64,000 nt of DNA. It comes from Stigmatella ashevillena. Lineage in GTDB: Bacteria; Myxococcota; Myxococcia; Myxococcales; Myxococcaceae. The stretch spans positions 6,876,425-6,940,424 of the forward strand of contig NZ_JAQNDM010000002.1 in assembly GCF_028368975.1 (NCBI RefSeq). The letters are read 5' to 3'. The notes beneath the pieces are model-generated. The model did no database searches, was not told the origin of the DNA, and worked only from the letters and a program-made list of their open reading frames with translations. Numbering within the stretch: the first letter of the stretch is position 1; every line of letters begins with the position of its first letter. Below are positions 5,451 to 27,790 of this stretch, piece after piece. A program made the position numbers and the translations under genes.

Positions 5451-5456
5451 CCCGCT

Positions 5457-8343: not shown

Positions 8344-8357
8344 CGGAGGGCTACTCC

Positions 8358-9797: not shown

Positions 9798-9986
9798 GTG
9801 GAGCCTCCTGGCCATGGCTCCCGCGCGCCAGGAGCACGACCCGAGATTACAGGGGAGCCATCACATGCCCGTCAATCATGGGGGCTCGCGGACACCTGGA
9901 ACCAGCACGGGCAACTCACGCCCGCCATGGCCTATGAGCGCTGCACCGGCTGCCTCCCAGGCATTCAAGGTGCTCCGGCCTGCTCC

Positions 9987-10113
9987 GGCGTGCGACATAC
10001 GTGCAACACGGATGGAGGAAGCCACTAACCATCCATGACTACGGAGTTAAAAAGGGGAGGTGGCGGGAATCGAACCCGCCGCTCGGATCTTCTGGCGAGA
10101 GCGCTCCCACTCC
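9987..10113. repeat. Integrase 3'-tail remnant plus att-like tRNA T-arm repeat
   Basis: The plus strand encodes ATRMEEATNHP then a stop (to 10037), matching the ATRVEGATNHP end of the intact integrase at 26127-27344; the rest of this integrase is gone. It is followed by a minus-strand T-arm-like stem at 10059-10080, then CTCGGATCTTCTGGCGAGAG. The 46 bp at 10062-10107 match 27367-27412 with three differences. The site therefore looks like the right end of an earlier insertion. It lies just upstream of toxin pair 2. Confidence 0.6.
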
Positions 10114-10114
10114 A

Positions 10115-10265
10115 GTGCCGGACGGCGTTTTCGTTCCGGGCGAAGACGGCGTGCGCTTCGAGGCGTTGCCGCCGCCCACGCAAGGAGAGGTGGAGCGGTT
10201 GCTGAGGGTGGTGCGCCACCGGGTGCAGCGGCTCTTGCGTCTTCGCTCCGGGCGCGCAACTGCGG
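10115..10265 (+). pseudogene. IS91-like transposase internal fragment
   Basis: The plus-strand frame reads VPDGVFVPGEDGVRFEALPP, then PTQGEVERLLRVVRHRVQRL. This is a mid-protein segment of IS91-family-like transposases, which carry a similar DGVFV...PPPT block. No start, catalytic Tyr region or C-terminus remains. Its relatives in the window are the N- and C-terminal scraps at 27.5-27.8 and 29.4-29.7 kb. Confidence 0.5.
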
Positions 10266-11739: not shown

Positions 11740-11838
11740 CGATTGGGTCCCAAAATGTAAGCCCCGCCCCCTTTCTCAGAGGGAGGACGCTTGAGAGCGG
11801 CGGGTTGCTCTGCTTGGGAGCGGCGGGTTTCGAACCCG
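11740..11838. repeat. Direct repeat with 29813-29911 (left copy)
   Basis: From ATTGGGTCCC through CTTTCTCAGAG to GCGGCGGGTTGCTCTGCTTG and the T-arm-like end TCGAACCCGC, this stretch matches 29813-29911 in the same orientation with about 80% identity by eye. It runs directly into repeat R2. The two copies lie 18 kb apart and enclose the kinase operon, the prophage and pgk. Confidence 0.6.
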
Positions 11839-11991
11839 CGTCGGGCGGTGCGAAACTCCCAGCGGTATCGCGCCCTTACCTCGTAACCGCCCGGAACGAC
11901 TTGGATTCGATATCCCGCCGCGTCCCACGTAGTCCCGCCCCGTTCCAGTTCGTTCCGCACTCTCACGCAACATAGACGCAACATGGCGGAG
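11819..11991. repeat. tRNA-3'-end-like att repeat R2 (right of toxin pair 2)
   Basis: This is the second copy of R1, in the same orientation. The minus strand carries T-arm GCGGGTTCGAAACCCGC and acceptor-like CGCTCCCA, with the long variable-arm-like segment. It is followed on the plus strand by CGATATCCCGCCGCGTCCC, degenerate decamers, and GCAACATAGACGCAACATGG, which resembles an integrase tail. R1 and R2 differ mostly in the acceptor end, suggesting insertion at related tRNA genes. Confidence 0.6.
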
Positions 11992-13081: not shown

Positions 13082-14221
13082 CTACGCCGTGGTGTTCTCA
13101 CCTAGAGAATGCTGTAGCTCCGTCCCAGCCATCCTTCTTCCAGCCTCATCCATGACGCTCATCAGTTCCGCGACCACATCTTCAGGGTTGAACGTCAACT
13201 CTCCGAGCCAGCGGCTCAAATCCGCCACCAGCGCCCCTGCCGTCTGGTAGCGCTCTCCGGGCATGGGATGAAGAAGCTTGCGGAGCGTGATGCGAAGGCC
13301 CTCATAGAGGTTTGCCGTCAACCGATCCACGTCCGCTTGCGTGTAGGTCGCCGCGCGCCAGATCGCATCCTCCAGCAGAGGGCTGCACCTCGAAAGCTGC
13401 GCCCGTTGGATGGCACGCATGACTCGGCGAAGCTGTGAGGGATTGAGGGACGCCTTCACCTCTTCGGTCACCTCATCCGGGGCATAGAGAAGATTATTGC
13501 CCGTGGACATTTCGAGCATGAGAACGCCCAGGGAGAAGAGATCCGAGCGTGCGTCAACGCGCTTGCCCAGAAGCATTTCCGGCGAGGAATAGAAGCCATC
13601 CCCTTGCAGGCGACGAGCAGTGGAAGGCACGCGCCCCGGCAAGGTGGAAAGTGCGAGGCCGAAATCAGAAACTCGAACGATTCCGTTCCAGTCCAGGAAG
13701 ACGTGATCCGCATCGATGGCGCGGTGAACGATCTTCAAGGGGCGCTGCCATTGCTCGCCTTTTACACCGTGCGCGAACGCCAATACATCTGCGATCCGGG
13801 CACCGACAAACATCGTGAAATGAGGCGAATACCACCGTCGGCACTCCCCCACGAGCGTCAGCAGAGAACTCAAGCTATTACCGCTCGGATACTCGCTGAT
13901 CACGTACCAAGTCCCCTCAACCTTTTTCAGCCCATGGACTTCAAGAATCCCCGGGTGGGCAAGAAACTTTGAGAGGCGCACCTGCTCTTCCAGCCTCACC
14001 CGAGCCCGCTTGATTCTCGATATCGGCGTGGTCGTAGCACTCGAAGGGCCAACCGCCTTGATCAGCACCTTATCTTGGGGCCGCCCTCCTTCACGTCGCC
14101 AAGCCAAAAGGAGGTGAACCCCCTGGTGAATCTCCCCCAAGTCTTCGCGGAACTCGTACTGAAAACCGTTCTCCTCGAAGAGAATCGCCCCTTTTGGAAC
14201 TCCAAAACCGGTTGCTGACAT
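13082..14221 (-). CDS. Protein kinase-like protein lacking the catalytic Asp (probable pseudokinase)
   Basis: This is a 379-residue Hanks-type kinase fold. ATG 14221 follows GGAGGG. The VAIK-type Lys is present (VLIKAV, Lys55) and the metal-binding DFG is intact (SDFGLAL, 186-188). The catalytic loop reads HRAIDADHV (166-174) where active kinases have HRDxKxxN, so Asp, Lys and Asn are all changed. The glycine loop (LGEIHQGV) is also poor. The activation-segment end SPEMLLGKR and the helical lobe DLFSLGVLMLEMSTG are normal. There is no transmembrane segment. The gene follows the receptor kinase by 160 bp on the same strand. It may be a regulatory pseudokinase of that kinase; this is inference. 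Confidence 0.75.
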   Translation of the reverse strand: MSATGFGVPKGAILFEENGFQYEFREDLGEIHQGVHLLLAWRREGGRPQDKVLIKAVGPSSATTTPISRIKRARVRLEEQVRLSKFLAHPGILEVHGLKKVEGTWYVISEYPSGNSLSSLLTLVGECRRWYSPHFTMFVGARIADVLAFAHGVKGEQWQRPLKIVHRAIDADHVFLDWNGIVRVSDFGLALSTLPGRVPSTARRLQGDGFYSSPEMLLGKRVDARSDLFSLGVLMLEMSTGNNLLYAPDEVTEEVKASLNPSQLRRVMRAIQRAQLSRCSPLLEDAIWRAATYTQADVDRLTANLYEGLRITLRKLLHPMPGERYQTAGALVADLSRWLGELTFNPEDVVAELMSVMDEAGRRMAGTELQHSLGENTTA

Positions 14222-14380
14222 GTTCGTCCCTCCGCTCGCGTGGCACCGAGCCGACGCGACGCAGGGGAATATTACCCGCAGGATTGGGAAAAAGGGAACT
14301 ACCCCCCAGGTCATCCGATGTTGCTCGAGCGAGCGGGCGAAAATCTGAGCCTACCTGTCACGTCCCCCCGGCACATGTTC

Positions 14381-16126
14381 TCAGGGCCAGCGGTCCACAA
14401 CGGTACCTTCGTTAAAGTTGCTAGCCTGCACGCGACCGTCCTTGAACCCATAGGAGCGGCTCTCCACCACGAAGCAAACAGGTCTCTCGTCCTGCCCAGG
14501 GAGCTTCACGCGGTCGTACCGCACCACAAGCGCAGGCCCGTCCGCGCGGCCCATCTTGTCCGAGAGGTAGTAAGCCTTCCCGTAGAAGCGGGTCCCAGGG
14601 GGGGCCACTTCGAGCTGCCTCCGATAATGCCCCTTCCCCTTCGGGACAACCCCCACCACTTCTGAGCCAGGGGTGAACCAGATCTGCTCATCTCTGCCGT
14701 GCCGGTCGTCGAGGACGAGCGAGAAGCGGTCGAAGTATCTCCAGTGAAGATCATTCACCATGGCACTCTCAGCGCCGTCCGGACAGGTGAAGGACTCGGG
14801 CCGGATCTGAGAACTGGGGCAGCCCGCTGCCAGTGCCGCAACAAGGGACAGCGCCGCGCATTCGGTAGCACTGACCTTGTTCCGAACGCGCGTGGGGCGC
14901 CCTTGGATCGAGACTTCGGGTGACGGCATCTTCACGGTTGAACCTTCCTTCTGGCCAGCGTCCGTCGCCGAGGGGAGGACCATCGGCGCGAGACTCGGGA
15001 GGGACATATCAAGGGGGGAGGTCATCGGCGGTGCGGAATGGTCCAGAATCGGGGAGGGAGCGTCTCCAGAGACGTGCCAGAAGGTCACAGCCGCAGTCAG
15101 GGCTATCACCAGTGCGGCGCCTGCGGCGAGCGCCCTTGAGGCCCTTCTGGGCGGCGTAAGGCCGTTGGAAGGCACCCCAGGAGGTCCCCCAACCCCGGAA
15201 GGCTCGGACGGCCACTGCTCGGAGGGGGCATGGGCGGGCACCATGTACTCGGCCCCCGAGCGCTCCAGGTGCTCTTCCAACTCGCGACGCAGGGCATCGG
15301 TGTCAACGGGGCGCTTGGAGGGATCCCGGGAAAGAATCCTCTCGACCAACTCGCTGAGCGCCAAGGGTATTCGGGGATTCACCCTCCGTACAGGAGGAGG
15401 TGGCATCAAGGGGTTGTTCGGGGCGATGCGCGGTCTGTTTTCCGCAGGTCGTGGGTCCGTCAGCAGTTCATAGAGCATGACTCCCAGCGCGAAGATCTCG
15501 TCGGCCACCTTGAAGGCATATCGTGCTCGGTGCTCGTTCTTGTGCTCGCGCAGGAACTTGAATTGCTCGGGTGCTCGGAAGCGCTCGGTCCCCGGTGGCA
15601 ACCCTTCTTCCGTCAAGTCTTCGGCCAGTGTGTAGGTCGCGCAGCCGAAGTCGATGATGATGGGCTCCCCATCGCTCTTTCGGATCAGGACGTTGACCAG
15701 CTTCAAATCCCGATGAAGTACGCCTCGCTCATGCATGTACGACAGCGCGGACGCGAGCTTGACGAAGACTCGCAAAATCTCGTGGATCGTGGGGTGCTTG
15801 CGCTCCTTCCACTCCGCCAGCGTCCAGCCGTCCACATATTCCAACGCGACATACATATTGCCCGTTTCCGCGTATCCATGTCCTTGCGGTCGGATGATGT
15901 TGGGATGGTTTAGCATGAGGAGTGTTGTCGCCTCACGCACCATCCGTGCATGCGTCTGCTTGTCATCCCCGCTGGCTTCGCGGTGGCGCGCCATCTTGAG
16001 CGCATAAGGCTTGCCGTTCTTCTCCACCAAGTAGACGACGGCAAACCCACCGTTGCCGAGTTCCCTTGAAACATGCCAGCCGTCAACAAGGGCACCAGAT
16101 GGCAGCCTCAGCAGATTCGATGTCAT
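14381..16126 (-). CDS. Transmembrane Ser/Thr protein kinase (PknB-like)
   Basis: This 581-residue receptor-type kinase has a cytoplasmic catalytic domain (about 16-290). Its glycine loop is GNGGFAVVY (24-32), followed by ALK with Lys44, HRDLK (138-142), DFG (159-161) and APE (185-187), all intact. A Pro/Gly-rich juxtamembrane region and one transmembrane helix (about 332-350) lead to a periplasmic C-terminal region with no recognised domain. Its ATG overlaps the stop of the DUF2381 gene upstream (ATGA at 16123-16126). DUF2381 proteins next to kinases are a recurring myxobacterial arrangement; a sensor-plus-kinase pair is inferred. The target is unknown. Confidence 0.9.
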   Translation of the reverse strand: MTSNLLRLPSGALVDGWHVSRELGNGGFAVVYLVEKNGKPYALKMARHREASGDDKQTHARMVREATTLLMLNHPNIIRPQGHGYAETGNMYVALEYVDGWTLAEWKERKHPTIHEILRVFVKLASALSYMHERGVLHRDLKLVNVLIRKSDGEPIIIDFGCATYTLAEDLTEEGLPPGTERFRAPEQFKFLREHKNEHRARYAFKVADEIFALGVMLYELLTDPRPAENRPRIAPNNPLMPPPPVRRVNPRIPLALSELVERILSRDPSKRPVDTDALRRELEEHLERSGAEYMVPAHAPSEQWPSEPSGVGGPPGVPSNGLTPPRRASRALAAGAALVIALTAAVTFWHVSGDAPSPILDHSAPPMTSPLDMSLPSLAPMVLPSATDAGQKEGSTVKMPSPEVSIQGRPTRVRNKVSATECAALSLVAALAAGCPSSQIRPESFTCPDGAESAMVNDLHWRYFDRFSLVLDDRHGRDEQIWFTPGSEVVGVVPKGKGHYRRQLEVAPPGTRFYGKAYYLSDKMGRADGPALVVRYDRVKLPGQDERPVCFVVESRSYGFKDGRVQASNFNEGTVVDRWP

Positions 16127-16992
16127 TTTTCTCCTCCCCTGACATACTTCGGGAAGCGCACGTCCGGAACCCGAAGACTGCGGCCATCGTTTCCACGCAG
16201 CTCAAGTGTGAAGTGCGTGTCAGTGTTCAGAATTGGTGCGTCCACTACGGCAATCACTTGCCCAAATTCTCCTGGATCGATCATGCCATCACCGTCCACC
16301 ACCAGCCGCGCCCGCAGCACCAAGCCTAGCGTCCCCGTGAACGTTGCTTCTTGCGGTGCCCACTTGAGCTGTCTGGATTGATTTGTAATCTGCATCGACA
16401 CCAGCGCCCAGCCCGTCCCGCGATAGAAGAGCCCTGAGTTTGCTTTAAGGCCCTGCGCTATATCTACAACCTCCTTGAGGGGTACGACTGACACGCCCGC
16501 TTTATCCACATAGCCGAGCAACACGAAATCCTCCGGTAGCGGCACGCGGGGCTGAGTTTCGTCTGGGCAGGGCGCGGTGGGCAGCTCGGGGCGCTGTACA
16601 TCGATCCGGATGTCCACCTCGGCGGGGTCTGTCACCAGCACGAATGCCGCCCGCGACGGCGCCCGTCCATCGGCGAAGAAGACCCCGATCTCGTGGCGCT
16701 CGCCTTCCTGAAGGTCCGTCACGGCTTGAACGATCACCGAGAGTTCCCCTGCGTCCAGCACGCGGATCCGGGACTCCTCAAAGGTGAGGGTCTTCTTCTG
16801 GATCGGAGCTGGAAAGAAGAGCAGCGTCATCGTGCCTTGCGCCACGTGAACCTCGGGCAGTGGCTCAGCGGGGTTACCAGTGACGGTAACGGCTCGTGTG
16901 CGCTCTACGCGCCCCCCAGGCGTCGGCTCAGCTCGTGCCGCAGTCCCCCAGAGGAGCACGAGCGCCAGGGACAATCTAAGCGGTTGGAACAA
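16123..16992 (-). CDS. DUF2381 family exported protein
   Basis: This 289-residue member of the myxobacterial DUF2381 (TIGR02268) family is coupled to the kinase downstream. Translation appears to start at TTG 16992, because AGGAGG stands ten bases upstream and the sequence MFQPLRLSLALVLLWGTAARA is a Sec signal peptide. Family features are HVAQGTMTLLFFPAPI, the segment RIRVLDAGELSVIVQAVTDL, GERHEIGVFFADG and the later W.L.....N. The protein is predicted periplasmic. It may act as the external partner of the receptor kinase, but no direct evidence exists for DUF2381 function. Its 5' edge borders prophage debris. Confidence 0.82.
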   Translation of the reverse strand: MFQPLRLSLALVLLWGTAARAEPTPGGRVERTRAVTVTGNPAEPLPEVHVAQGTMTLLFFPAPIQKKTLTFEESRIRVLDAGELSVIVQAVTDLQEGERHEIGVFFADGRAPSRAAFVLVTDPAEVDIRIDVQRPELPTAPCPDETQPRVPLPEDFVLLGYVDKAGVSVVPLKEVVDIAQGLKANSGLFYRGTGWALVSMQITNQSRQLKWAPQEATFTGTLGLVLRARLVVDGDGMIDPGEFGQVIAVVDAPILNTDTHFTLELRGNDGRSLRVPDVRFPKYVRGGEK

Positions 16993-17019: not shown

Positions 17020-17649
17020 CTACCATCGTGAGCACTCACGCAGGGGGCCCAAATCCCACAGTCCGGGAGCTGCGGCGGCGTTCTGCCGGTACACCTTGCC
17101 GCCCCACAGGAAGGCGCCCCCGACAAGCGGCACGTTGTAAGCGGCGACCGGGCCGGTGGGCAGGAGGTACGCGACGAGCAGCTCGTTCTCCCAGCCACCC
17201 GGGCGGCCCTGCATCCAGTCCGGATCCAGTGTGCGCCCGTCTCCCACTGCAATGGCGCGGCAGTTCCCCTCACGTCCGGCCCTAACGTGAACGCCCGGAC
17301 GGTGAGAGTGCCCAAAGGCGACTGTAAACCCCGGGCCTCCCCAGTCGTCAGCGACCTTCGCGGCGTGGTGCTTGGGGAACTGCTTCGCGACTTGGTGGCC
17401 GTGTAGAAGCCGCAGGTTCCCGTGCTTGAGCGGCTGTGACTTCTCGGGCACCCACTTGCTCCCCAGCGAGTCGCAGTCGAGGTCTTGGGCGAAGCGCTTC
17501 TAGAACCCGGAGACCAGAGACGGGGCGCTTCGGGAGAGCATCCGCAGAACGGCGCTGTCGTGGTTCCCTTCCAAGACGGTGAGCTTCGCGCGGGGGCAGG
17601 TCTTCCGCATGCTCTGTGCGAACTGCCCCCGTGTCAGCTTGGCGGGGGG
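17020..17649 (-). pseudogene. Phage-type metallophosphoesterase, N-terminally deleted and with amber codon
   Basis: Immediately after the capsid stop, the same frame reads AKLTRGQFAQSMRKTCPRAK then LTVLEGNHDSAV, containing the GNHD motif of calcineurin-like phosphoesterases. It hits a TAG at about 17502-17504 after SLVSGF and continues as KRFAQDLDCDSLGSKW, LRLLHGHQVAKQF and TVAFGHSHRPGVHV, containing the second metal-binding GHxH motif. The start and the first metal-binding motifs are missing. Both lesions make it non-functional. The deletion joins it directly to the capsid gene. Confidence 0.7.
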
Positions 17650-18735
17650 TTAGTAGGTGATGCAGCTGAACGCCTTCGGCTGGCGCAGCTTGAAGTCGGC
17701 CTTCACGATCGCGCGGATGGTCGTCTCGTCGTACTCGGCGCGCGTGTCGTGCTCGGACAGGCTCAATTCCTCGTCGATCCCGTAGATGAATTGGCGCCAA
17801 TCGGCACAGAACGTGATCCGCGTCACGGGGACCCGCGTCGTCATGACGAACGGGAAGCCGCGGATGGTTCCCTTGTCGAGCATTTCCTGACGGAAGATGA
17901 AGATGCCTGAATCCTTGAGCTGCATCAGCGCGGTCGCCCGGGTCGGGTGCAGAACCCAGCCGGCAGTGCCCATGCGAACGTGCGCCGTCATCGGCAGCTC
18001 GACCGCCTTGTCGATGTCGGCGAGGTAGGCCACAGCGGTCGTGCCTGTGTTCGCGAAGGTGTGCGCGCTGCCGAGCTGCACGAAGAGACCCTTCGGCGTG
18101 GCCCCCGTGCCATCACCGTTGAACCCGGCGTCGTCGAGCCCATCGGCCACGGTGGCGCGGAGGTCCTCCCCGACACCCGCGTCGCCGACCCCCGGCGTGC
18201 GCAGCAGGTCGTTACTGATATCGGTCAGCACCATCCCCTTGTGCGCCTTGAGTACAATCTTCCCGTACTTCGGCGCGCTTTTCGGAACAGTCTCCCCCTC
18301 GCCCACCCACTTGAAGACCGAAGTCCCCGTCTGCGTGCCCATGTGCAACTCGCCCTTGAACGCCTGTGTGCGCACGCCGAGCTTGAGCAGGGCGGCGTCG
18401 GGCCGCAGGAACTCGATCACCTCGCCGCTCTGCTGGATGGGTACGAGCACGCCTGCCGAGTCGAACTTGCTGAGCTGAACCGCCTTTTGCACGTCGGCGT
18501 TGCCGAAGCGCTTCGCGGCGTCGAGCAGATCGGCCGCGCCCGTGCGGCGCCCCAAGGCGACGACGCTCTTCGTGAACGCGCCGAAGTTCGCGACGCTCGC
18601 GTACACGCAGCCCTCGCGCGTCGCCCTATCTGTACCCACGCGGCCTGGCGCGCTGCGCACTGCGGAATCGACCAGCTCCCGCGCAACTTCCGGGCCCAGC
18701 GCTTTCACCATCTCCGCCATCTGATTGCGAGTCAT
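17650..18735 (-). CDS. Phage major capsid protein (HK97 fold)
   Basis: This 361-residue protein matches HK97-type major capsid proteins. It has an N-terminal helical segment that would be removed by the prohead protease, then FLRPDAALLKLGVRTQAFKG, GTSVFKWVGEGETVPKS and LKAHKGMVLTDISNDLLRTPG. It also has ATVADGLDDAGFNGDGTGAT, with a pocket-lining GdG/P stretch, and the C-terminal TFCADWRQFIYGI. The frame is complete with no lesions. It overlaps the protease gene by 4 bp (18732-18735). Its presence with protease and portal defines a head module on the minus strand. Confidence 0.9.
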   Translation of the reverse strand: MTRNQMAEMVKALGPEVARELVDSAVRSAPGRVGTDRATREGCVYASVANFGAFTKSVVALGRRTGAADLLDAAKRFGNADVQKAVQLSKFDSAGVLVPIQQSGEVIEFLRPDAALLKLGVRTQAFKGELHMGTQTGTSVFKWVGEGETVPKSAPKYGKIVLKAHKGMVLTDISNDLLRTPGVGDAGVGEDLRATVADGLDDAGFNGDGTGATPKGLFVQLGSAHTFANTGTTAVAYLADIDKAVELPMTAHVRMGTAGWVLHPTRATALMQLKDSGIFIFRQEMLDKGTIRGFPFVMTTRVPVTRITFCADWRQFIYGIDEELSLSEHDTRAEYDETTIRAIVKADFKLRQPKAFSCITY

Positions 18736-19595
18736 TGCCTTGACACTCCTTGGATGTAAACCTTGAACGCCTCGACGAAGCCCTTCGCGGTTTCGGCGGC
18801 GTCGAGCCCCTTCGCCTTTTCGTCTTCCTCGTCATCCGCCTTCGGCGCATCAGCGGATGTCGGCTCGCCCGTACTGGGCTTGCTCTCGTCTGCGGGCGCA
18901 TCACCGTTGCCGGTGGTCTGCTCTTCGCCCGCGTTAGGTTTGTCATCGTCCTTGTCGGACGCCTTCTGTTCGGCGTGGTTGCCGAGCAGCTCAGCGACCC
19001 ACGTTGCGATGCGCTCGACAAGCTCGTCGTCTTCGAGTGCCTTCGAGCGCACGGCTCGCGCGTTGCCCGGAATCGTCACGATCGAGACCTCCAGCAATTC
19101 CTGAGCGTCACAGTCGAAGCCGCCCCGCTCGTTCTGCCGGTACTGCCCGGGGAGCATGAGGTAGCGGACGGAGACGGCGTTCAGGATGCCCTTCGCGACC
19201 TTGCGCTCGATCCGCTTGGCGAAGTCGTCGTCATCGTCGAACTCAACGTCGATCATCAACGCGTTGTTCTCGATGTAGACGCGCCCCTTGCCGATAGGCA
19301 GCGCGGGCGCCGCTCCTGTCCACGCGGCGTGCGCACCGTCGTCATGGTTGAAGAGAACGACACCGTTCGCGTTGTAAGCGTCGGTGCGCCATCCCTTGAC
19401 GCTCAGCCGGTCGGAGTAGCGGTCAAAGTCACCGTCGCTTGCCTTGAACGTGTAGACACGGCTGGTGCTGTCAGCTTCGACGGGGGTCAGTGCTGCCGCA
19501 TCCTTCCTCACGGCGGCGAGTTGCAAAGAGCGTGTGAGCGGCTTTTTCATTCCTACCGAGTAAATGAGTGCGGAATTTGCCCGTGGCTCAGTCAT
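18732..19595 (-). CDS. HK97-family prohead protease
   Basis: This 287-residue prohead serine protease acts during capsid maturation. The body is VYTFKASDGDFDRYSDRLS, then VVLFNHDDG with the likely catalytic His, then GILNAVSVRYL with the likely Ser, and LLEVSIVTIPGNARAV. The last 90 residues are an acidic Glu/Asp/Lys-rich tail, as in scaffold-bearing proteases. ATG 19595 overlaps the portal stop (ATGACTGA) with a GAGG upstream and is preferred. ATG 19550 is possible but has its GGTAGGA too close. The frame is intact. Confidence 0.87.
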   Translation of the reverse strand: MTEPRANSALIYSVGMKKPLTRSLQLAAVRKDAAALTPVEADSTSRVYTFKASDGDFDRYSDRLSVKGWRTDAYNANGVVLFNHDDGAHAAWTGAAPALPIGKGRVYIENNALMIDVEFDDDDDFAKRIERKVAKGILNAVSVRYLMLPGQYRQNERGGFDCDAQELLEVSIVTIPGNARAVRSKALEDDELVERIATWVAELLGNHAEQKASDKDDDKPNAGEEQTTGNGDAPADESKPSTGEPTSADAPKADDEEDEKAKGLDAAETAKGFVEAFKVYIQGVSRQ

Positions 19596-20931
19596 TTTTC
19601 GCGGCCTCGGTGTTCGCTTCCGCCGAGCTGCCCGCGGCTGGCGTGGGCGTCTCTTGGGGCTTGCTTGGCTTCTGTCCAGGCAGCAGCTCGGCAAAGCCCT
19701 GGCGCTCGGGGTGAGGCTTGAATCCGGCTTCGGTGCGCCATTCGTCGAAGGTGAACGCACTCGGCAGCGTTCCCATCACGCGCAGGCGGTGCTCGCGGTC
19801 TGCGGGAACGGGCGAGTCGTAGGAAAGGATCACGTCGTCTTGAAAGCGCGGTGCCAAGTGCTTCTGCATGGCTGCCAGGAACACTTCGGCGCGCGGCTTG
19901 GTGGCCTGCTCGGCAAGGTGTTCCCGTGCGGCGTAGCTCGTCGCTTTATTGCTATTCGTCACGTCGCCGACGATCTCGGGCGGCACGCGATAGACCATCC
20001 GCACGAAGTCCATGAGGAAGCGGCGCAGGTCGATGAGCTGCATATCCTTGAAGGGCGTATCCAGGCGCGCGAACGTGGTCCGGCCACTGGTGATCATGAC
20101 GCGCCCTGCGTTGGCGGGCCCCCCATACTCGCGGGCCAACGACTCCTTGAACGCCTTCGCTGGCCCCGCTTGGCTCTCGCTGAACCCCTCGATCGAGATG
20201 ACGGCGCCAGGCAGCATGTTGTTGTAAAAGGCATTCTTCGTGTAGCGCGCCGCGTGCTCGTCCGTGTCGACCTCATCACCCAGCGCGTAGGCGATGCCGA
20301 TCCCGCGGCCGAGCGGGTCCGCCGGGTTCAGGCGCTTCACGTAGAGCACGCTCGGTGCTGGAAGCGTGAACAGGCGCCCGCCCGCCGTGATCGTGAAAGT
20401 GCGCTCGGGCTTCGGCTTGCTCAGGTCGGGAAGTGCGAGCACACAGTCGGGCGGAACCGGCCACAGGCCCACCGGCACCCCAGCGACTTCCTCGACGACC
20501 GCGAAGAACTCGCCCGTCAGGTCGTAGTGCGTGCAGAAGAGTTTCGCGAAGTCGCGGCCCGTCATGTAGTCGTTCGGATCCGCCAGTAGCCGCAGAAGGG
20601 GATGGTCGATCAGCTCGACTGCACCCGCCACGTTGACGAGCGCCTTCAAGCGCTCGCGGCGCACGTCCCCACCGGCCCGGCGAAGGGAGATGTCGACGAG
20701 CGACTTCTGCGTCACGGGGTCGCGTCGCTGAAAGGCGCGCCACGTCACATCCGCAAAGGCATCCCCTACGGTGTCCACGATCGCCCCAAGCCAGGGCATC
20801 TCAGCGTAGGAGGCCAGCAGCGCGGGCACCTCCCGCCGTGGTGGGGCCGACGTCCAACGGCTGAGTTCCAAGCCGGTCCCCTTGCGCTTGCCGCCTCTCA
20901 GCACGGCGCGCACCTTGTCGAGCATTCCCAT
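19588..20931 (-). CDS. Phage portal protein
   Basis: This 447-residue portal protein forms the dodecameric vertex through which DNA enters the head. Recognisable parts are WLGAIVDTVGDAFADVTWRA, the FYNNMLPGAVISIEGF segment, IDLRRFLMDFVRMVYRVPPE, SNKATSYAAREHLAEQA and the C-terminal FDEWRTEAGFKPHPERQGFA. ATG 20931 is preceded by GTGAGG. The frame is open throughout. It sits just downstream of the broken large terminase and overlaps the protease by 8 bp. Confidence 0.9.
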   Translation of the reverse strand: MGMLDKVRAVLRGGKRKGTGLELSRWTSAPPRREVPALLASYAEMPWLGAIVDTVGDAFADVTWRAFQRRDPVTQKSLVDISLRRAGGDVRRERLKALVNVAGAVELIDHPLLRLLADPNDYMTGRDFAKLFCTHYDLTGEFFAVVEEVAGVPVGLWPVPPDCVLALPDLSKPKPERTFTITAGGRLFTLPAPSVLYVKRLNPADPLGRGIGIAYALGDEVDTDEHAARYTKNAFYNNMLPGAVISIEGFSESQAGPAKAFKESLAREYGGPANAGRVMITSGRTTFARLDTPFKDMQLIDLRRFLMDFVRMVYRVPPEIVGDVTNSNKATSYAAREHLAEQATKPRAEVFLAAMQKHLAPRFQDDVILSYDSPVPADREHRLRVMGTLPSAFTFDEWRTEAGFKPHPERQGFAELLPGQKPSKPQETPTPAAGSSAEANTEAAKND

Positions 20932-20940
20932 TGCGTAGCC

Positions 20941-21473
20941 TCACCCTGCGAAGAACTGTTCAGCGAAAACCAAGTCGTGGATACCCCAGCAGAAGGCATC
21001 GATGCGGTCGTCACGGCGACGCCGTTCGGCCACGTCACGCGACGCTTGAAGGGCTCATAGCGCAGCGTGAAGCCGAGAGGAGACAGGGCCAAGAGCCCGG
21101 AGGGTCCCCGGATCATCGTGTCACGCACGTCTGCTGCGGTCGGGCCGATGAGCGCTCCGGCGCTCTTCGCCTGCCACACCTTTTTGATGACCCACCGGGC
21201 ACCGCGCCACGTCTTCCCGAAGCTGCGGCCAGCCATCACGAAGCACGTCGAGAACTTGTCGGGCGGCACCTGTTCGCGGCGGGCCCAGAAGTCCAGGTCG
21301 AAGACGAACAGCTCGACCTCTTTGTCTTCGAGCCCGCCGAAGAGCTTCGCGAGCTGAGCGCGGGAACCAACCGCGTTGACCATTCGCGACGCAGGTAACT
21401 CGTGGGGCGCGAGCCCTTCGGCGAACTGTACCCACCAGGACCCGCGTGTCAGGACCCTACGCATGGGAGGCAC
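20941..21473 (-). pseudogene. Phage terminase large subunit with large internal deletion
   Basis: The N-terminal part is a clear large terminase: FDLDFWARREQVPPDKF, the Walker A MAGRSFGKTWRGARW, LIGPTAADVRDTMIRG and YEPFKRRVTWPNGVAV. There the homology stops. In a different frame the next bases read DDRIDAFCWGIHDLVFAEQF then FAG and a stop at 20941, the usual extreme C-terminus of a terminase. So about 300 residues, including Walker B and the whole nuclease domain, are deleted, with a frame change at the joint. The packaging motor cannot work. The start overlaps the small terminase end by 17 bp. Confidence 0.82.
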
Positions 21474-21945
21474 CCTTGTCGTCGGCCTGCTCGGACGTGG
21501 CGCAATACTCTGCGGCGGGCACGGGCACGGGCACGGGAGGCTCGTCTGGCAGGAACTTGCTCAGGCGGTCGAGCAGCAGTTCACGTAGCGCAGCTGTATC
21601 GGCGGCTTGGTCCTCGGGATTCTTCGCCTCGACGTTGTCGCGTCGGCCGTACAGCTCCGGGAAGCGTCGGCTCAGAAGCCACTGGACGTGTTTCGGGTTC
21701 GAGGTGGAGGCGGCCTGTAGGGTTTCGGTCGCTTCCTGCATGAACTCCGCTTCGGCGCGGTTCACGGCAACGTGGAACTCACGATAGAGCCCACGGGCTT
21801 CACTGGCCCCCCGGTGATACCAACGGGAAAGGGTCTGCTCGTCGACGCCAACAAGACCGGCCGCAGCACGGCGGAAAAGACCCGAACTCAGATGCTCGCA
21901 AATAACCTTTTGGACGTCGGGGGTAAGTTTGGTTGGGCGGGCCAC
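21457..21945 (-). CDS. Phage terminase small subunit-like DNA-binding protein
   Basis: This 162-residue protein has an N-terminal helix-turn-helix (KLTPDVQKVICEHLSSGLF, AAAGLVGVDEQTLSRWYHRG) and a helical region FHVAVNRAEAEFMQEATETL with HVQWLLSRRFPELYG, as in small terminases of HK97-like phages. The start is GTG 21945. A conserved CCGCACTCATTTA element lies directly upstream and recurs upstream of the protease gene. Being first in the minus-strand head operon fits a TerS role. Confidence 0.75.
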   Translation of the reverse strand: MARPTKLTPDVQKVICEHLSSGLFRRAAAGLVGVDEQTLSRWYHRGASEARGLYREFHVAVNRAEAEFMQEATETLQAASTSNPKHVQWLLSRRFPELYGRRDNVEAKNPEDQAADTAALRELLLDRLSKFLPDEPPVPVPVPAAEYCATSEQADDKGASHA

Positions 21946-22354
21946 ATACCCTAAATGAGTGCGGATTTTACGAGTGGCCCACCGATCGGTTCAGATTTTA
22001 GGCCCCGCCCCCAACGAAACTCCGCAGCGCGTTTTTTCTCAAAATTTTCTGAGCGTGTGCGCACTCCGGGCAAGGTTTGATTTCACCTTTGACAGAAAAG
22101 CCGAGCCGGGGGCGCCTATCTCTTCTGTCGCACCTGACCACTTTGGCCCACTTTCATCCACATGCTACCCGAAAACCTCACCCTGCCCAGTCAAGGAAAG
22201 TAGAGTCGACTACCCAGCTCAAATATTGACCATCCCGTCAACGAAGCTGAAAACCTCTGTTTAGGACGGCCAGCGACAGGCAGGAACAGGACGGTTATTG
22301 CGGCCACTTTCTCACCATTGCCTACAGGGACACACAATCTTGCGAGGACTCATA
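21946..22354. other. Divergent control region, phage head operon / kinase
   Basis: These 409 bp separate the minus-strand head operon from the plus-strand kinase gene. Base composition falls toward the kinase. At 22032-22047 a CTCAAAATTTTCTGAG near-palindrome follows a T6 run. A TTGACA at 22089-22094 has no well-spaced -10 box. No gene is seen. Confidence 0.45.
21952..21979. promoter_or_regulatory. Shared upstream element of terS (copy 2 at 19562-19588)
   Basis: On the minus strand CCGCACTCATTTA lies eight to ten bases before the terS start. At 19562-19574 the identical 13-mer lies about a dozen bases before the internal protease ATG 19550. The flanks (CCAC ... upstream) also match. It may be an operator, promoter core or translation element; function is not known. 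Confidence 0.4.
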
Positions 22355-23545
22355 ATGACCAGCAACGATGAGGCTCCCGAAGAGTACGTGGAACACTTCA
22401 AGCGGCACAATCTGTCGATCGGTAGACGAATTGGCAGCGGAGCATCTGGAAGCGTTTATCGCGCAAATCAACCAAAACTGGGGCGTGATCTTGCAATCAA
22501 GTTATTCGATCACACTAGCGGTAAATCTGACACCCTTAGCCGAAAACGCTTTGAGCGCGAGGCCAGACTTCTCGCCAAAGCGCAGCACCCATCCATTCCC
22601 TTCGTGCTCTCGTGCGGCGACGTGCCCTGCAGTTCAGGGAATTCGACGCCGTATATTATTATGCAACTCATTGAGGGCAATCGCCTCGACGCAATCATTG
22701 CAAAAGAAAGATCAACGCCCAAAACCGCCATATTCTACATGAAACAAATCTTGGCCGCACTGGCTTGCGCGCATCAGCACAACATCATCCATCGAGATGT
22801 CAAACCCGAAAACATACTCGTATCAAACGCAGGGTCGGGACACTGCTATCTTATAGATTTCTCGGTAGGCGTTAGCTTGGTTTCCACTCCTGGATTGACA
22901 CGTGTAACGGGAGACAAGCGCCCTCCTGGTACATGGCTTTATGCTGCGCCGGAGCAACTTGAAGGGAAAGAAGTCGATCAACGAGCCGATCTTTTCTCAG
23001 CGGGCCTTGTTCTTTTTGAGTTGTTGACGGGTCGAAGAATCACCAAGCCCGAACTTTCAGAAGTCGAACTATCCTTGCTCTCTCCTTCCCTAAAACCTCT
23101 TCTACAGAAGGCATGTCATCCCAACCTGCCCCAACGATTCCAAAGCGCCAATGACTTTCGGGCAGAACTTGAGCGCTTAGAATTTGCAGGAATCAGCTTG
23201 GAGTTTGCAGGAATTAATCGCGTAACATCCAGAGACGCGTTATGTCTGAACTTTAGATGTCCGGGCACTCGGTGGGGGATGAAAGGCTGGTATGAAGGTC
23301 CCAATATCATCATCGATACCACCAAATCTTTTTGCAAAGACTGCGGAAATAGTTTGGTCTATCCATGCGCACATTGTGGCGCGCCATTCTCTGATAGCCA
23401 GTACTGCCCAGACTGCGGGCACACGCACTATGAAAAGCCCTTCTGCGAGAAATGCTTCACCATACTGAACAAGCGCGACAGGTACACGAATACAGTCAAA
23501 AATGGCTGCGCTAGCTGCAAGGCTGATGACGACATACCATTCTAG
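22355..23545 (+). CDS. Ser/Thr protein kinase fused to a Cys-rich zinc-ribbon array (prophage cargo)
   Basis: This 396-residue protein has an unusually low GC content for the window. ATG 22355 follows GAGGA. The kinase domain (about 20-272) has GSGASGSV (27-34), AIK with Lys49, HRDVKPEN (146-153) and APE (198-200). The magnesium motif reads DFS (168-170) instead of DFG. There follow a duplicated LEFAGI (275-280 and 283-288) and a C-terminal region with Cys pairs at 297/302, 327/330, 338/341, 351/354, 364/367 and 385/388, enough for three zinc ribbons. It has no transmembrane helix. It is transcribed against the prophage genes, as carried-in cargo genes often are. Kinases such as Stk2 and PglW act in phage defence; such a role here is inference. 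Confidence 0.82.
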   Translation: MTSNDEAPEEYVEHFKRHNLSIGRRIGSGASGSVYRANQPKLGRDLAIKLFDHTSGKSDTLSRKRFEREARLLAKAQHPSIPFVLSCGDVPCSSGNSTPYIIMQLIEGNRLDAIIAKERSTPKTAIFYMKQILAALACAHQHNIIHRDVKPENILVSNAGSGHCYLIDFSVGVSLVSTPGLTRVTGDKRPPGTWLYAAPEQLEGKEVDQRADLFSAGLVLFELLTGRRITKPELSEVELSLLSPSLKPLLQKACHPNLPQRFQSANDFRAELERLEFAGISLEFAGINRVTSRDALCLNFRCPGTRWGMKGWYEGPNIIIDTTKSFCKDCGNSLVYPCAHCGAPFSDSQYCPDCGHTHYEKPFCEKCFTILNKRDRYTNTVKNGCASCKADDDIPF

Positions 23546-23614: not shown

Positions 23615-23971
23615 TCACACAAAGTTGGCAGCGACTTCACGTTCGCAACTGAGTGACTCGACTCGGTCACGCTGATTTTTGCCTGTCGACACAGGACACC
23701 TGAGTCTGTATCCCAACGCATCCGCGCATCGAGTAGTCCAGCAGCGGTGCTGCCGCCCCTGTGGCTCTTGCCCCCTGTGTCCACTTTGGAGGCTCACGCC
23801 GCACAGCTCACACGTCATCGCGTACAGGCTCTGCCGACGAGTCGCATCGCGTTCAGAGCAGGCCATGTGACGCGGCCCGACCGCGTGTTCGTAGGTGATG
23901 ATCTCGCCCTCCTCGCTGGGAAGGGAGCACGACGCACAAGGCCCCCGCCGCTTCGCGACGATCGTTGGCAT
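23615..23971 (-). CDS. Small Cys-rich phage protein, unknown function
   Basis: This is a 118-residue protein. The N-terminal half has CASC (12-15) and HMAC, a pattern seen in small phage zinc-binding proteins that begin with a basic strand and a CxxC. A CELC follows. The rest is not recognised. ATG 23971 lies 1 bp from the end of the broken sigma gene, so it was the next gene of that operon. The C-terminal third is not obviously protein-like and may be frame-damaged. Confidence 0.45.
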   Translation of the reverse strand: MPTIVAKRRGPCASCSLPSEEGEIITYEHAVGPRHMACSERDATRRQSLYAMTCELCGVSLQSGHRGQEPQGRQHRCWTTRCADALGYRLRCPVSTGKNQRDRVESLSCEREVAANFV

Positions 23972-23972
23972 G

Positions 23973-25044
23973 TCATCCCCCCTGTGTGGTGAGCAGCTCG
24001 CGCAGCTCGGTGAGAGACAGCACGAGCATCCGGTCGACCCTGCTTTTGGGTACCCCCCCAGGCTTCCGCCACCGAGCGCACCGACTGCGCCGACTGGTTG
24101 ATGCCGTAGACCCGGGAGACCAGCTCACGCTTTACTGGAGCCAACCGGCGCACGGCATTGAAGACGCGGGCGCGGCGTTCTTCCGCCAGCAGGGCCTGCT
24201 CGGGGCTCTCGGCTTCTGCCTCCCGGCTCGTGAAGGTGCGAAAGGCTGCCTCGAACTCAACAGCCCCGCGTGACTGTTCCGATGATGGCTCTTCGCTGGC
24301 GGGCGCGACTGCGTCGGTGCTCTCAATCCGAATCGTGCCGCTTTCCCCATTCGCTGAATGCAAAGTGCGCCCCTTGTGAGCCCAGTCGCTCAGATGCACG
24401 TCGCTCGCATGCATGCGCGCAAATTATTCACAAGCCGTCCGGGCGCGGAAGTAAGGGGCTGTCGCAAAATAAGTATAATGAAAGTGATAGCGAGCCCACC
24501 AGGCAAGCAGCCATGGGGTTGGCCGTAACATGATGCGTACGGGATTGCAGGTTCGGGCGAATCTGGGCCTGCAGGAATCACTTTCATGGGCAGTGGACCA
24601 CTCGCTCTCTCCGAGGCGGCAAGCAAGCGTCCGGCTGATGAAACAATTTCACTTATTTTGCGACAGCCCCTAAGCCACCTCCCCGAACGACTGCCCGCCC
24701 CTCGTAGGGTCGTACTTATCGATCGTGCAGAGGACGGCGATCGACGCAACCTGTTCGAGGTCTTTGGACAACGGCGAGTCCGCGAACGGCTTGCTACAAT
24801 TCACAACCCTCTTGATGATTTGACACACGGAAGCAAGCAGTTCTGCGGATAGGGCCTTCTCGGCAACCGTGTCTCCTGTTTCTCGTGCAAACATGATTCG
24901 CGCGACAAGTGCGGCTTGTTGTTCCGACCGGGTAGTCTTCGACTCTCGTACATCGCTCACCGCTTCTTCGGCCCCAGTGTGTGTGGGGGCGTGAGACATC
25001 ATCGGACTGTCACTCCAGCAATCACGGCCAACCCTGGCCACCAT
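23973..25044 (-). pseudogene. Sigma-70-like factor gene broken by MITE, stop codon and frameshift
   Basis: Three segments form one ancestral gene. The first (25044 to 24674) ends DLEQVASIAVLCTIDKYDPTR then GGQSFGEVA, a sigma region 2. Removing the MITE and one TAA duplicate lets the frame continue YFRARTACE, meets a TAA at 24424-24426 (from GAA by one change), and continues FARMHASDVHLSDWAHKG. The third part reads RVFNAVRRLAPVKRELVSRV then YGINQSAQSVRSVAEAWG. A run of seven C (24053-24059) shifts the frame; with six, it reads VPKSRVDRMLVLSLTELREL to a TGA at 23973. The tail resembles a region 4 helix-turn-helix. Confidence 0.75.
24455..24670. mobile_element. 216-bp MITE with 20-bp perfect terminal inverted repeats
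   Basis: Both ends read GGGGCTGTCGCAAAATAAGT inward. Flanking TAA triplets (24452-24454 and 24671-24673) are the target duplication. Inside, ATGAAAGTGAT (24479-24489) and its reverse complement (24578-24588) form a nested inverted repeat. No transposase is coded. A TNA-type 3-bp duplication suits mobilisation by an IS5-group transposase; that link is inference. Confidence 0.85.
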
Positions 25045-25355: not shown

Positions 25356-25901
25356 GTGGGCCGCGCTGCGGTGCCGTTTGGGCCATCGCAGAAAACCGCA
25401 CCCATTTACCCTGCTGTGCCCCCTTCCTCTCGACCCGTCCCTTCGATCCCCGACATTGCCGGAAGCTACACGGCTCGCGTCCGTGCGCTCCTCGTGGCTC
25501 GCGGCGAGCACATGACCGCGGTCGAAATCACCGAGGCTCTCGGCTGCAATGAGCGGCCTGTGCGTGAAACCCCCGACCGGCTCGTGTCCCAGATTTACAT
25601 GGCGGGAAAGAGCAAAGGCGGTTCGAAAGACTTGATCGAGCTTGCAGGCATCGTCGGGCGTGTATCCTGCGCTCGCGGTGCGTCCTTCGAGGCGAGCTAC
25701 CTCCCGCGCGAATGGAGGGGCACCCTCGACGGTGGCGTCATGGAGGAGCGCATCAAGGGCCGCATCAACGAGCGTCCGGTCGAGAGGGCTCGCGTCCGGC
25801 TCCCGCGTGCGGCGGACAAGCAGCACAACGTCTGGGACGCGGCCGGGGTTGGTCTTCACGCAGTGGGACGGCTCGCGCCGCGAAAGGTCTTCCCGCGATG
25901 A
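25356..25901 (+). CDS. Putative winged-helix phage protein
   Basis: This is a 181-residue protein with a GTG start at 25356 and weak ribosome site. Residues about 37-90 (YTARVRALLVARGEHMTAVE, ITEALGCNERPVRETPDRLV) fit a winged helix-turn-helix with a wing near IYMAGKSKGG. The remainder is basic and unrecognised. Its TGA overlaps the excisionase ATG (25898-25901), which supports it being translated. An open frame on the opposite strand over the same region was judged a shadow. A role as regulator of excision is a guess. Confidence 0.5.
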   Translation: MGRAAVPFGPSQKTAPIYPAVPPSSRPVPSIPDIAGSYTARVRALLVARGEHMTAVEITEALGCNERPVRETPDRLVSQIYMAGKSKGGSKDLIELAGIVGRVSCARGASFEASYLPREWRGTLDGGVMEERIKGRINERPVERARVRLPRAADKQHNVWDAAGVGLHAVGRLAPRKVFPR

Positions 25902-26137
25902 AGGGCGAGGTCACCATGCCCCCGGAGGAAGGCCCCCAGGTGCCCGAGTTCCTCACCGACGAAGCCGCGGCTCTTCTGCGCGTGAACCGGAAAACGCTCT
26001 ATGAGTCGATTCGGCTCGGACAGGTGCCGGGGATCGTCCGCATCGGGAAATCGCTGCGCATCCGCCGGGCTGCATTGCTAGAGTTCTCCCCCGGGAAGGG
26101 CCGCGATCCCGCGCTTCGAGGTCACAATGAGCGTTAG
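25898..26137 (+). CDS. xis: Excisionase-like helix-turn-helix protein
   Basis: This 79-residue MerR-like DNA-binding protein is of the excisionase class. VPEFLTDEAAALLRVNRKTL, YESIRLGQVPGIVRIGKSL and RIRRAALLEF match the standard HTH_17 pattern: helix-turn-helix, then a G(K/R)xxRI wing. It begins at ATG 25898 inside the previous stop and ends 11 bp inside the integrase gene, so the three genes form a tight operon. It would bend the att DNA and set the direction of recombination. Confidence 0.8.
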   Translation: MKGEVTMPPEEGPQVPEFLTDEAAALLRVNRKTLYESIRLGQVPGIVRIGKSLRIRRAALLEFSPGKGRDPALRGHNER

Positions 26138-27344
26138 AGCGCGGAAGTGGACGAACAAGGCCGGGAAGGTCGAGGAGCGCTGGACAGTGGACATCGTGTT
26201 TCAGCACGCAGACGGACGGGAAGAGCGGGTGACGAAGGTGTCGCCTGTTCAGACCCGTCGTGGTGCTGAGCAATACGAGCGCGAGCTGCGCAATGCTCTC
26301 CTGAACGGGACTTTCGGAAAGGAGAAGAAGAACGAGGCGCGCGTCACGTTGGCGGAATTCGCCGCGCGGTTCCTCACCTACAGCGAGAACAACAACAAAT
26401 ATTCGAGTGTCATCACCAAGCAGCAGATCTTGAAGGACCACATTCTGCCGTTCTTCGGTGAAATGGCGCTTGCGAGTATCGGCCCGGCTGAGATCGAAGA
26501 CTTCAAAGCGCTTATGCGTAAGAAGAAGTCTGCGGCTCGGGCCCGGAAGGAAGACCCCACGCAGGCCGCCATCCTCAAGCGGGCGGAAGTCGAGCCGAAG
26601 CCCCTGAGCTTCAAGACCATCAACAACGTTCTATGCGCGTTGAGCAAGTTGTTGAACCTCGCTGAAGAGCAACGGGTCATCCGGCAGGCTCCGCGCGTGA
26701 AGCTCTTCGGAAAGCTCCCCAAGCCCAAGTTTGACTTCCTCACCTTCGCGGAGGTCGAGCGGCTGATCGACGCGACTGAGCCAGAATGGCGAACGCTGAT
26801 ACTCGTGGCGCTCAAGACGGGCCTGCGACAGGGGGAACTGATTGGGCTCCAGTGGGCTGATCTTGACCTGTCACGCGGCATGATGACCGTGCGTCGGTCG
26901 GTCTGGCGCGGGGTTACGGACGTGCCCAAGGGTGGACGCGAGCGGGCGGTCGAGCTGCCTAGCTCGGCGGTGGATGCTCTCAAGGCACACCGGCACCTCC
27001 GGGGCCGCTTCGTCTTCTGTCAGGACGACGGTCAGCCGCTCACGGCGGGCAAGATGGAACGACCGCTGCGCCGCGCTCTCAAGCGGGCGGACATTGACCG
27101 GGAGGAGGGGCGGATCGGCTGGCACGACCTGCGCCACACCTACGGCAGCCACCTCGCAATGAAGGGCGTCCCGCTCAAGGTCATTCAGGAGCTGATGGGG
27201 CACGGCACGATCGACATGACGATGCGCTACGCTCACCTGAGCCCCGACACGCGGCGAGATGCGGTCGCGGTGCTCGACGCGCCCCTTGCACCGGCACGCA
27301 ACACTGACGCAACACGGGTGGAAGGGGCTACTAACCACCCGTAA
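26127..27344 (+). CDS. int: Tyrosine recombinase / phage integrase
   Basis: This complete 405-residue integrase has an N-terminal arm-binding part, a SAM-like core-binding domain with TLAEFAARFLTYSENNNKYS, and a catalytic domain. The catalytic residues are visible: Arg in KTGLRQGELIGLQW (about 233), HxxR in WHDLRHTYGSH (about 332-335), His in LMGHGTIDMT (about 358) and the nucleophile Tyr in MRYAHLSPD (about 367). The C-terminal tail ATRVEGATNHP stops 22 bp before a tRNA-T-arm-like att repeat. An almost identical tail remnant with att lies at 10 kb. Of the prophage genes, this one looks fully functional. Confidence 0.93.
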   Translation: MSVRARKWTNKAGKVEERWTVDIVFQHADGREERVTKVSPVQTRRGAEQYERELRNALLNGTFGKEKKNEARVTLAEFAARFLTYSENNNKYSSVITKQQILKDHILPFFGEMALASIGPAEIEDFKALMRKKKSAARARKEDPTQAAILKRAEVEPKPLSFKTINNVLCALSKLLNLAEEQRVIRQAPRVKLFGKLPKPKFDFLTFAEVERLIDATEPEWRTLILVALKTGLRQGELIGLQWADLDLSRGMMTVRRSVWRGVTDVPKGGRERAVELPSSAVDALKAHRHLRGRFVFCQDDGQPLTAGKMERPLRRALKRADIDREEGRIGWHDLRHTYGSHLAMKGVPLKVIQELMGHGTIDMTMRYAHLSPDTRRDAVAVLDAPLAPARNTDATRVEGATNHP

Positions 27345-27365
27345 TCACGGCTTAAAAATGTAGAC

Positions 27366-27413
27366 GCGGCGGGTTTCGAACCCGCCGCTCGGAGCTTCTG
27401 GCGAGAGCGCTCC
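27366..27413. repeat. att-like tRNA T-arm repeat beside integrase
   Basis: The minus strand gives GGAGCGCTCTCGCCAGAAGC followed by TCCGAGC and the perfect stem-loop GCGGGTTCGAAACCCGC. 46 bp match 10062-10107 with three differences. Its place 22 bp after int, and the tRNA-like T-arm, indicate the attachment site (attR or attL). The acceptor-like end (CGCGTCTACA) differs from the other copies. Confidence 0.65.
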
Positions 27414-27499
27414 AACTCGGCCGAGCTCAGGTCCCATAGGGCTTCCAGGCACGGCACTCCCAGGGCGGGCTTGGCGAAACTCTGTGGGTACCCATCGAT

Positions 27500-27790
27500 A
27501 GTGGGTGCCCTGGCGAGATGTGGCTGGGGAGGGTCAGGTGGGGGAGCACGGGTGGGAGTACCGGCGCAGGCGGCCGGAGGGGACGGTGCTGTATGAGACG
27601 GTAAGGGACCATCTCGCTACGTTGCTGGCGGACGTGTTTGAGTGCGTCAGGTGCGGGGGCAGGCGGCGAGTGCTGTCGTACCTGACGGCTCCCGGTGGGG
27701 TACGTGCCATTCTGGAGCACTTGGAACTGCCCACGCGGCCTGCTCAGCTGGCTGCGGCGCAGGGGCCCCCGCAGTTGGCGTGGTGGTGAG
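27500..27790 (+). pseudogene. Internally deleted IS91-like transposase
   Basis: The frame reads [20 protein letters not shown] then LATLLA, the N-terminus of IS91-family-like transposases. It is joined directly to [19 protein letters not shown] and [16 protein letters not shown], the C-terminal zinc-ribbon/helix end. The whole catalytic middle is missing. From 27631 to about 27777 the DNA is almost identical to 29521-29667. Confidence 0.6.
27631..27777 (+). repeat. Direct repeat flanking pgk (left copy)
   Basis: About 147 bp of transposase 3' end, with one difference noticed by eye from 29521-29667, in the same orientation. The pair encloses pgk in a 1.9-kb unit. Confidence 0.75.

Follow-up and report, generated by a model that had tools for sequence, protein, structure and literature searches.

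To our knowledge, few kinase-based phage defenses are understood, and how they recognize infection is mostly open. The locus analyzed here raises both matters for a gene of the myxobacterium Stigmatella ashevillena: does a Ser/Thr kinase with a cysteine-rich C-terminus, encoded amid phage genes, act against phages, and could its tail be the sensor? The gene lies in a 64,000-nt stretch of contig NZ_JAQNDM010000002.1 (assembly GCF_028368975.1; hereafter "the window," to which coordinates refer unless a locus is named). An earlier note, made from the bare sequence, had described it as a candidate phage-defense gene.

An intact kinase gene with a cysteine-rich tail

The gene and its 2 parts are as follows.

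22355–23545, forward strand: kinase–zinc-ribbon gene, 396 aa (ATG at 22355, stop at 23545)
22415–23179, forward strand: PknB-type Ser/Thr kinase domain, residues 21–275 (Pfam Pkinase, PknB matches, and model pLDDT)
23243–23518, forward strand: putative zinc-binding array, residues 297–388 (12 Cys in 6 pairs; DZR match; conservation; shuffles)

An alternative in-frame TTG start is present at 22298; in an alignment with the only full-length relative found, from the genome designated G133 (see below), the start of the relative matches ATG22355. The Pfam Pkinase match covers residues 22–231 (E = 2.9e-38), and PknB is the best PDB sequence match of the kinase domain, with Mycobacterium tuberculosis PknB also holding the top Foldseek rank for the structural model. 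The translation contains GSGASG at residues 27–32, Lys49 (nucleotide 22499), Glu69, HRD at 146–148 (Asp148 at 22796), DFS at 168–170 (22856), and the PE of APE at 199–200 (22949). Translation and Pfam match thus bear out the description in the earlier note of intact Lys49, HRD, and APE motifs with DFS in place of DFG. Asp168 is present, and the Gly of DFG is replaced by Ser in the kinase and in the G133 relative alike; with the Pkinase fold and the catalytic Lys, HRD Asp, and DFG Asp, the protein is a Hanks-type Ser/Thr kinase. In a survey of 162 kinase ORFs from the fetched loci, duplicates included, 12 ORFs could not be parsed; among the remaining 150, DFG occurred in 145 and DFS, an unusual variant, in 5, all 5 being duplicate fetches of these 2 proteins. 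The change from DFG to DFS could reduce catalysis.

A structural model computed with 47 kinase stretches as the alignment reached a pLDDT above 90 along most of the kinase domain, about 60 at residues 325–373 of the tail, and below 50 at residues 174–187 (the activation loop), 288–323, and 374–396. A model computed from the single sequence had a mean pLDDT of 35.5 and was discarded.

The tail cysteines stand at positions 297/302, 327/330, 338/341, 351/354, 364/367, and 385/388, that is, 5 CxxC pairs and 1 C-x4-C pair, and the count of 12 confirms the 6 Cys pairs noted earlier within the last 100 or so residues. Shuffling the last 120 residues yielded 5 CxxC in 14 of 10,000 permutations. The Pfam DZR profile matched the tail alone with 30.2 bits against a cut-off of 27.3 (E = 5.2e-07), scored 25.4 bits, under the cut-off, on the whole protein, and was not listed for the G133 relative at E values up to 0.01. 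A search for solved structures resembling the tail returned none that was convincing (best E values 0.0085 and 0.13). Three ribbons, as proposed in the earlier note, are the natural count for 12 cysteines, although any assignment of pairs to a shared zinc would be tentative at the tail's pLDDT of about 60 or lower. The product is best described as a soluble, probably active Ser/Thr kinase of the PknB type that ends in a putative zinc array.

Composition and genomic setting

The kinase gene has a GC content of 50.1% and a GC3 of 52.4%, against 58%–69% and 66%–93%, respectively, in the 18 other measured ORFs of the window, in agreement with the distinctly low GC content stated in the earlier note. 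Its surroundings include the following phage-related features.

17650–18735, reverse strand: major head protein (PHROG 10, 1.7e-34)
18732–19760, reverse strand: head maturation protease (PHROG 80, 3.9e-13; best match phrog_11321, function unknown, 2.2e-19)
19588–20931, reverse strand: portal protein (PHROG 2662, 2e-58)
20898–21473, reverse strand: terminase large subunit, 191 aa, N-terminal part only (Pfam Terminase_6N positions 3–86 of 215; no PHROG match)
21457–21945, reverse strand: terminase small subunit (PHROG 4102, 8.6e-21)
25712–26137, forward strand: HTH_17/excisionase-like gene (Pfam HTH_17, 1e-09; PHROG HTH/excisionase)
26127–27344, forward strand: tyrosine integrase of the element (Pfam Phage_integrase, 3.4e-35; PHROG integrase)
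27366–27385, no strand assigned: att-like core beside the integrase gene (exact copy at 11820–11839 and 85% copy at 10060–10079; tentative element ends)

The proposed prophage location holds insofar as head and packaging genes lie to the left of the kinase gene and the integrase gene to the right, but the prophage is decayed. The terminase large subunit gene, which abuts the portal gene, is truncated to 191 aa, and the prophage is therefore defective; the truncation, combined with the lack of phage tail genes among the window ORFs scanned, points to a prophage in decay or to what is left of a head-only element. A search with the portal protein in phages gave distant matches only, the best at 26%–33% identity. 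Likewise, the statement that the gene is transcribed against the prophage modules is correct for the head and packaging genes but not for the integrase gene, which runs in the same direction. From composition and position, the kinase gene looks horizontally acquired and housed within a prophage remnant.

The borders of the element are not fixed, because the att-like sequence is widely repeated in the genome: sequence related to the core gave 33 matches in the genome itself at E values up to 1, many of them short, and the related repeat was matched in all 7 members of the genus searched. A repeated sequence of about 65–200 nt with a T-arm-like hairpin occurs at 27257–27560 and 9951–10142, one copy touching the integrase gene. 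Insertion into a tRNA or tmRNA gene was considered and dropped, there being no tRNA in the window and no Rfam match at the core beside the integrase gene; the sole tmRNA match over the cut-off lies at 2.71 Mb, and the core sequence is repeated in the genus. An ARAGORN tmRNA call at another locus (L117) was also dropped, its tag being unidentified.

Several further observations concern the neighborhood. Two copies of a 30-nt direct repeat (83% identical) lie at 19561–19590 and 21952–21981, the latter between the kinase gene and the terminase small subunit gene and directly upstream of the second; a shared operator is a possible explanation. The reverse strand of 23815–25044 carries ORFs in more than one frame that match sigma factors weakly (12–14 bits for the ORF at 24673–25044) and a stretch resembling region 4 by eye, perhaps a broken phage sigma factor. 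At 13082–16992, on the reverse strand, a DUF2381 gene is followed by 2 more kinase genes (581 and 410 aa). Farther left, also on the reverse strand, lie a TsiV-type gene (type VI immunity for VRR-NUC) at 3130–4050 and a gene for a protein with a C-terminal Tox-REase-5 domain at 8358–9815; by these annotations, 3130–9815 appears to be a toxin/immunity region beside the element.

A single full-length relative

The search for the same architecture, which the earlier note had put forward as a check, was carried through Myxococcota genomes, outside genomes, and collections of mobile elements; searches that lack a positive control show little when they come back empty. With the kinase part as the query, S. 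ashevillena itself contained at least 149 other matching places among the 150 scored of 239 candidates. The best other kinase scored 114 bits versus 930 for self; no scored match in this genome extended past query residue 284, and none of these kinases thus bears the tail. The same search listed, at similarly low scores, a number of kinases whose open frames are about 590–650 aa long and which may represent a lineage-specific kinase family.

The full-length profile matched 2 of 195 Myxococcota genomes at 1e-55 (best 9 candidates per genome), namely S. ashevillena and G133, and none of the 6 other genus members searched. The tail alone matched 5 of the 195, including the same 2; the remaining 3 matches were rejected, as their open frames of 113–220 aa are too short and the full-length profile did not match them. 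The sole full-length relative found among these genomes is thus a protein of 410 aa from G133, which belongs to the same family and another genus.

The 2 proteins align end to end at 35% identity and have in common the 12 tail cysteines, the DFS motif, a W..G..GP stretch, and a C-terminal DDxIPF. In a kinase-domain tree of 156 rows they form a pair with 99% SH-aLRT support, in a calculation that gave long-branch warnings for many rows, this pair included. That the design has been retained from end to end at 35% identity, its motifs invariant, argues that the fusion of kinase and tail is an old, selected unit.

Outside Myxococcota, proteins combining kinase and tail were not found in 398, 199, and 198 genomes (795 in all), in samples centered on gammaproteobacterial, acidobacterial, and actinobacterial genomes and searched with the full-length profile at a threshold of 1e-48 among the best 4 to 9 candidates per genome. 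Three matches of this profile in 2 of the outside samples end at the kinase domain. The tail profile matched in 1 of 398, 4 of 199, and 0 of 15 genomes. All of these matches were set aside: 2 are type II/IV secretion ATPases and 2 are proteins with TerB matches below the cut-off (22.1 and 18.6 versus 24.4 bits), none of the 4 matching a kinase family at E values up to 0.01, and the fifth (L095) is interrupted by stops where the tail profile matches and is not recognized by the full-length profile. The 2 TerB-like proteins (L097:1456–2571 and L099:1444–2793, both on the reverse strand) come from a sample centered on a planctomycete genome; judged by profile scores, a link of the zinc array to Ter-type stress systems is possible.

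The phage, plasmid, and viral-contig (IMG/VR) collections yielded no full-length relative, returning either kinase-domain matches with cover below 80% or nothing, and the design is accordingly not common phage cargo in the collections searched. The only tail match there, on a Cupriavidus plasmid, was rejected because the 1129-aa product looks like a cyclase-type protein carrying its ribbon at the N-terminus. A scan of genome contigs (79 loci kept of 196 relatives) showed at least 3 CxxC behind the kinase in none of 146 kinase ORFs. Within what could be searched, the kinase–zinc family is rare.

The relative stands beside a DS-32 pair

On its 7.8-kb contig, the G133 kinase gene ends 55 nt from a convergent 2-gene cluster.

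L094:553–2171, forward strand: DS-32 pair (PRTase-CE and NADAR), of low GC content, beside the G133 kinase relative

Both genes exceed their NCBIfam cut-offs (372.9 versus 250 bits and 271.5 versus 240 bits), and the families are named "phosphoribosyltransferase-like anti-phage protein" (DS32_1) and "NADAR family anti-phage protein" (DS32_2). DS-32 presumably originates in the DefensePredictor work, which mentions other DS systems as well as NADAR and PRTase domains, the string DS-32 being absent from its main text (PMC13092281). The kinase gene of G133 has a GC content of 51.1% and a GC3 of 52%, and the DS32_1 gene a GC content of 51.8%, with 59.6% for the whole contig, which also bears a reverse transcriptase (RVT_1, 9.8e-35) and an IS66 transposase (6.6e-56); recognized prophage genes were not found beside the relative on this contig. 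In the plasmid collection, a profile search detected a kinase ORF within 6 kb of DS-32 at 0 of 3 loci, and DS32_1 had no match in the phage collection or the viral contigs. The plasmid loci indicate that the kinase is no regular component of DS-32; an island common to both was met once, and the adjacency may be a chance co-location in a mobile island.

The search of prophages and defense islands has thus yielded 1 relative beside an anti-phage pair but none in phages, plasmids, or viral contigs. As to the candidacy for phage defense itself, foreign composition, intact catalytic residues, the prophage remnant, and the DS-32 neighborhood of the relative partly sustain it, whereas the 3 plasmid loci do not, nor does a PADLOC assignment that proved non-specific (see below).

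Comparison with known kinase systems

One kinase carried by phages is the 933W-type Stk, which reportedly excludes HK97. The copy in phage JLK-2012 (L142) resembles the Stigmatella kinase in being a prophage-borne Ser/Thr kinase, but the likeness is confined to the kinase part (26% identity), and Stk has HFD and DFG motifs and no Cys-pair tail.

Prophage-encoded KKP kinases are described as defending through kinase toxicity and, in Pf prophages, as controlling prophage production via phosphorylation (PMC11341870). They share with our candidate the combination of a Ser/Thr kinase and a prophage and, as proposed for the candidate, a defense based on phosphorylation, but KKP requires a second kinase and a phosphatase. 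A cluster of 2 kinases and a phosphatase was not recovered, since no phosphatase family exceeded its cut-off among the scanned neighboring ORFs; a fragment at 17023–17451 scored 14 versus 27 bits for Metallophos_2, and the window's 2 further kinases, which accompany the DUF2381 gene, begin 6 kb from the kinase gene. Staphylococcal Stk2 is presented in the same source as a single-kinase defense system; the likeness is by description only, and the description mentions no zinc array (PMC11341870).

PADLOC assigned the kinase to PD-T4-6 with up to 196 bits. We rejected this assignment because all 8 control proteins matched the same models: 4 paralogues from the same genome and 1 acidobacterial kinase (239–432 bits), the G133 relative (209), the 581-aa kinase of the window (173), and the phage Stk (169). 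The match is therefore no evidence of defense. Scores against MAD6 (NCBIfam antiphage_MADS6, cut-off 460) were below the cut-off for both the kinase (120.2 bits) and the G133 relative (149.6 bits).

The earlier note had held that a kinase fused to zinc ribbons is not among the well-described defense systems. This was too strong: such fusions are known from TerY-P triads (PMC11090510) and from actinobacterial GAP1-N2 systems (PMC7159879), in both of which the kinases come with vWA and PP2C genes. For the C-terminal zinc ribbon of the TerY-P Ser/Thr kinase, a role as a metal-sensing switch has been hypothesized, and nucleic-acid binding has been suggested by analogy with an antiphage version that has an OB fold; the triads are associated with restriction-type defense systems, and the same text cites Anantharaman 2012 and, for an antiphage module that is TerY-P-like but has an OB fold as its tail, Gao 2020 (PMC11090510). 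The order of a Ser/Thr kinase followed by a C-terminal zinc ribbon recurs in our kinase, the tails being compared by description only. However, the triads include vWA (TerY) and PP2C partners, whereas the present protein has 6 Cys pairs and stands apparently alone, no vWA or PP2C match having been obtained with Pfam among the scanned ORFs of the window or the 7 other ORFs scanned on the G133 contig. TerY_C (PF15616) gave no Pfam match in the kinase at E values up to 1; a genome search for it found 0 of 184, with the control likewise at 0 of 14. The GAP1-N2 kinases differ in having a beta-rich domain or transmembrane helices and PP2C, vWA, and GTPase genes, none of which was found here. In the titles and abstract openings of the literature searched, a body with subscription papers mostly outside it, no stand-alone zinc-ribbon kinase in phage defense was encountered.

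Proposed function and alternatives

A defense role for the kinase is plausible, and the reading that we favor, tentatively, is that of a mobile, stand-alone kinase of the phage-exclusion type whose zinc array recognizes the trigger or the target. An accessory gene, acquired horizontally and borne by a decayed prophage, would encode a protein whose zinc array recognizes some feature, nucleic acid or protein, of an incoming phage or a phage–host complex, or else serves to dock the kinase on a nucleic acid or a protein. Binding would release or position the kinase, which would then phosphorylate proteins of the host or the phage and so stop the infection, often together with the cell. Kinase activity, zinc binding, the trigger, the targets, and the anti-phage outcome are what we infer from the features described above. 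The prophage KKP kinases and the single-kinase system Stk2 serve as precedents (PMC11341870). Both known copies of the design occupy a mobile or defense setting, the prophage remnant here and the vicinity of DS-32 in G133; with only 2 members known, these settings may be due to chance. The mere presence of a kinase gene says little in a host genome with 150 scored kinase places. A stronger version would place the protein in a new class of stand-alone anti-phage kinases, with a 12-Cys, 3-zinc array as the direct sensor of nucleic acid or protein from the phage and as the switch of a DFS-type kinase that has no vWA or phosphatase partners; we regard this version as doubtful.

Other roles have to be weighed against exclusion of phages. 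The product might instead be a prophage regulatory kinase that phosphorylates regulators of the host or the phage and thereby adjusts lysogeny or silences co-resident elements, with defense secondary. The gene lies between the integrase gene and the oppositely oriented head genes, a position that fits such a role, as does the precedent of KKP in Pf prophages (PMC11341870). We nevertheless consider it unlikely, given that the G133 relative adjoins DS-32, a reverse transcriptase, and an IS66 transposase, not recognized prophage genes, and that the HTH_17 excisionase-like gene is the only regulator identified among the scanned ORFs near the kinase. A general stress, metal, or redox signaling kinase, carried as an accessory trait unrelated to phages and with the array as its sensor of metal or oxidants, would find its model in the TerY-P metal-sensing hypothesis (PMC11090510), and the 2 weak tail-profile matches in TerB-like proteins, if real, would favor Ter-type stress systems over phage sensing. 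Set against this are the lack of a vWA or PP2C match among the scanned ORFs beside either member and the composition and settings, which favor mobile elements, and we hold this role to be improbable.

It is also conceivable that the gene was useful elsewhere and is now inert cargo, functionless in its present host, in a decaying prophage. The truncated terminase and the lack of tail genes among the ORFs scanned agree with this, as do a composition that has not been ameliorated and the failure of the full-length profile to match the 6 other genus members searched. A frame and motifs that are all intact, with conserved residues up to the last codon, speak against it, and inert cargo appears quite unlikely.

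Significance

The design of the protein is conserved and mobile and was once encountered beside an anti-phage pair, which makes the interpretation of the kinase as a phage-exclusion protein reasonable and partly strengthens it. If the interpretation is true, a kinase and a putative sensor joined on a single chain of 396 residues, with a second version available at 35% identity, would offer a small model for kinase-based defense. Should phage protection fail, the gene would still mark a rare, mobile family of kinase–zinc proteins in myxobacteria.
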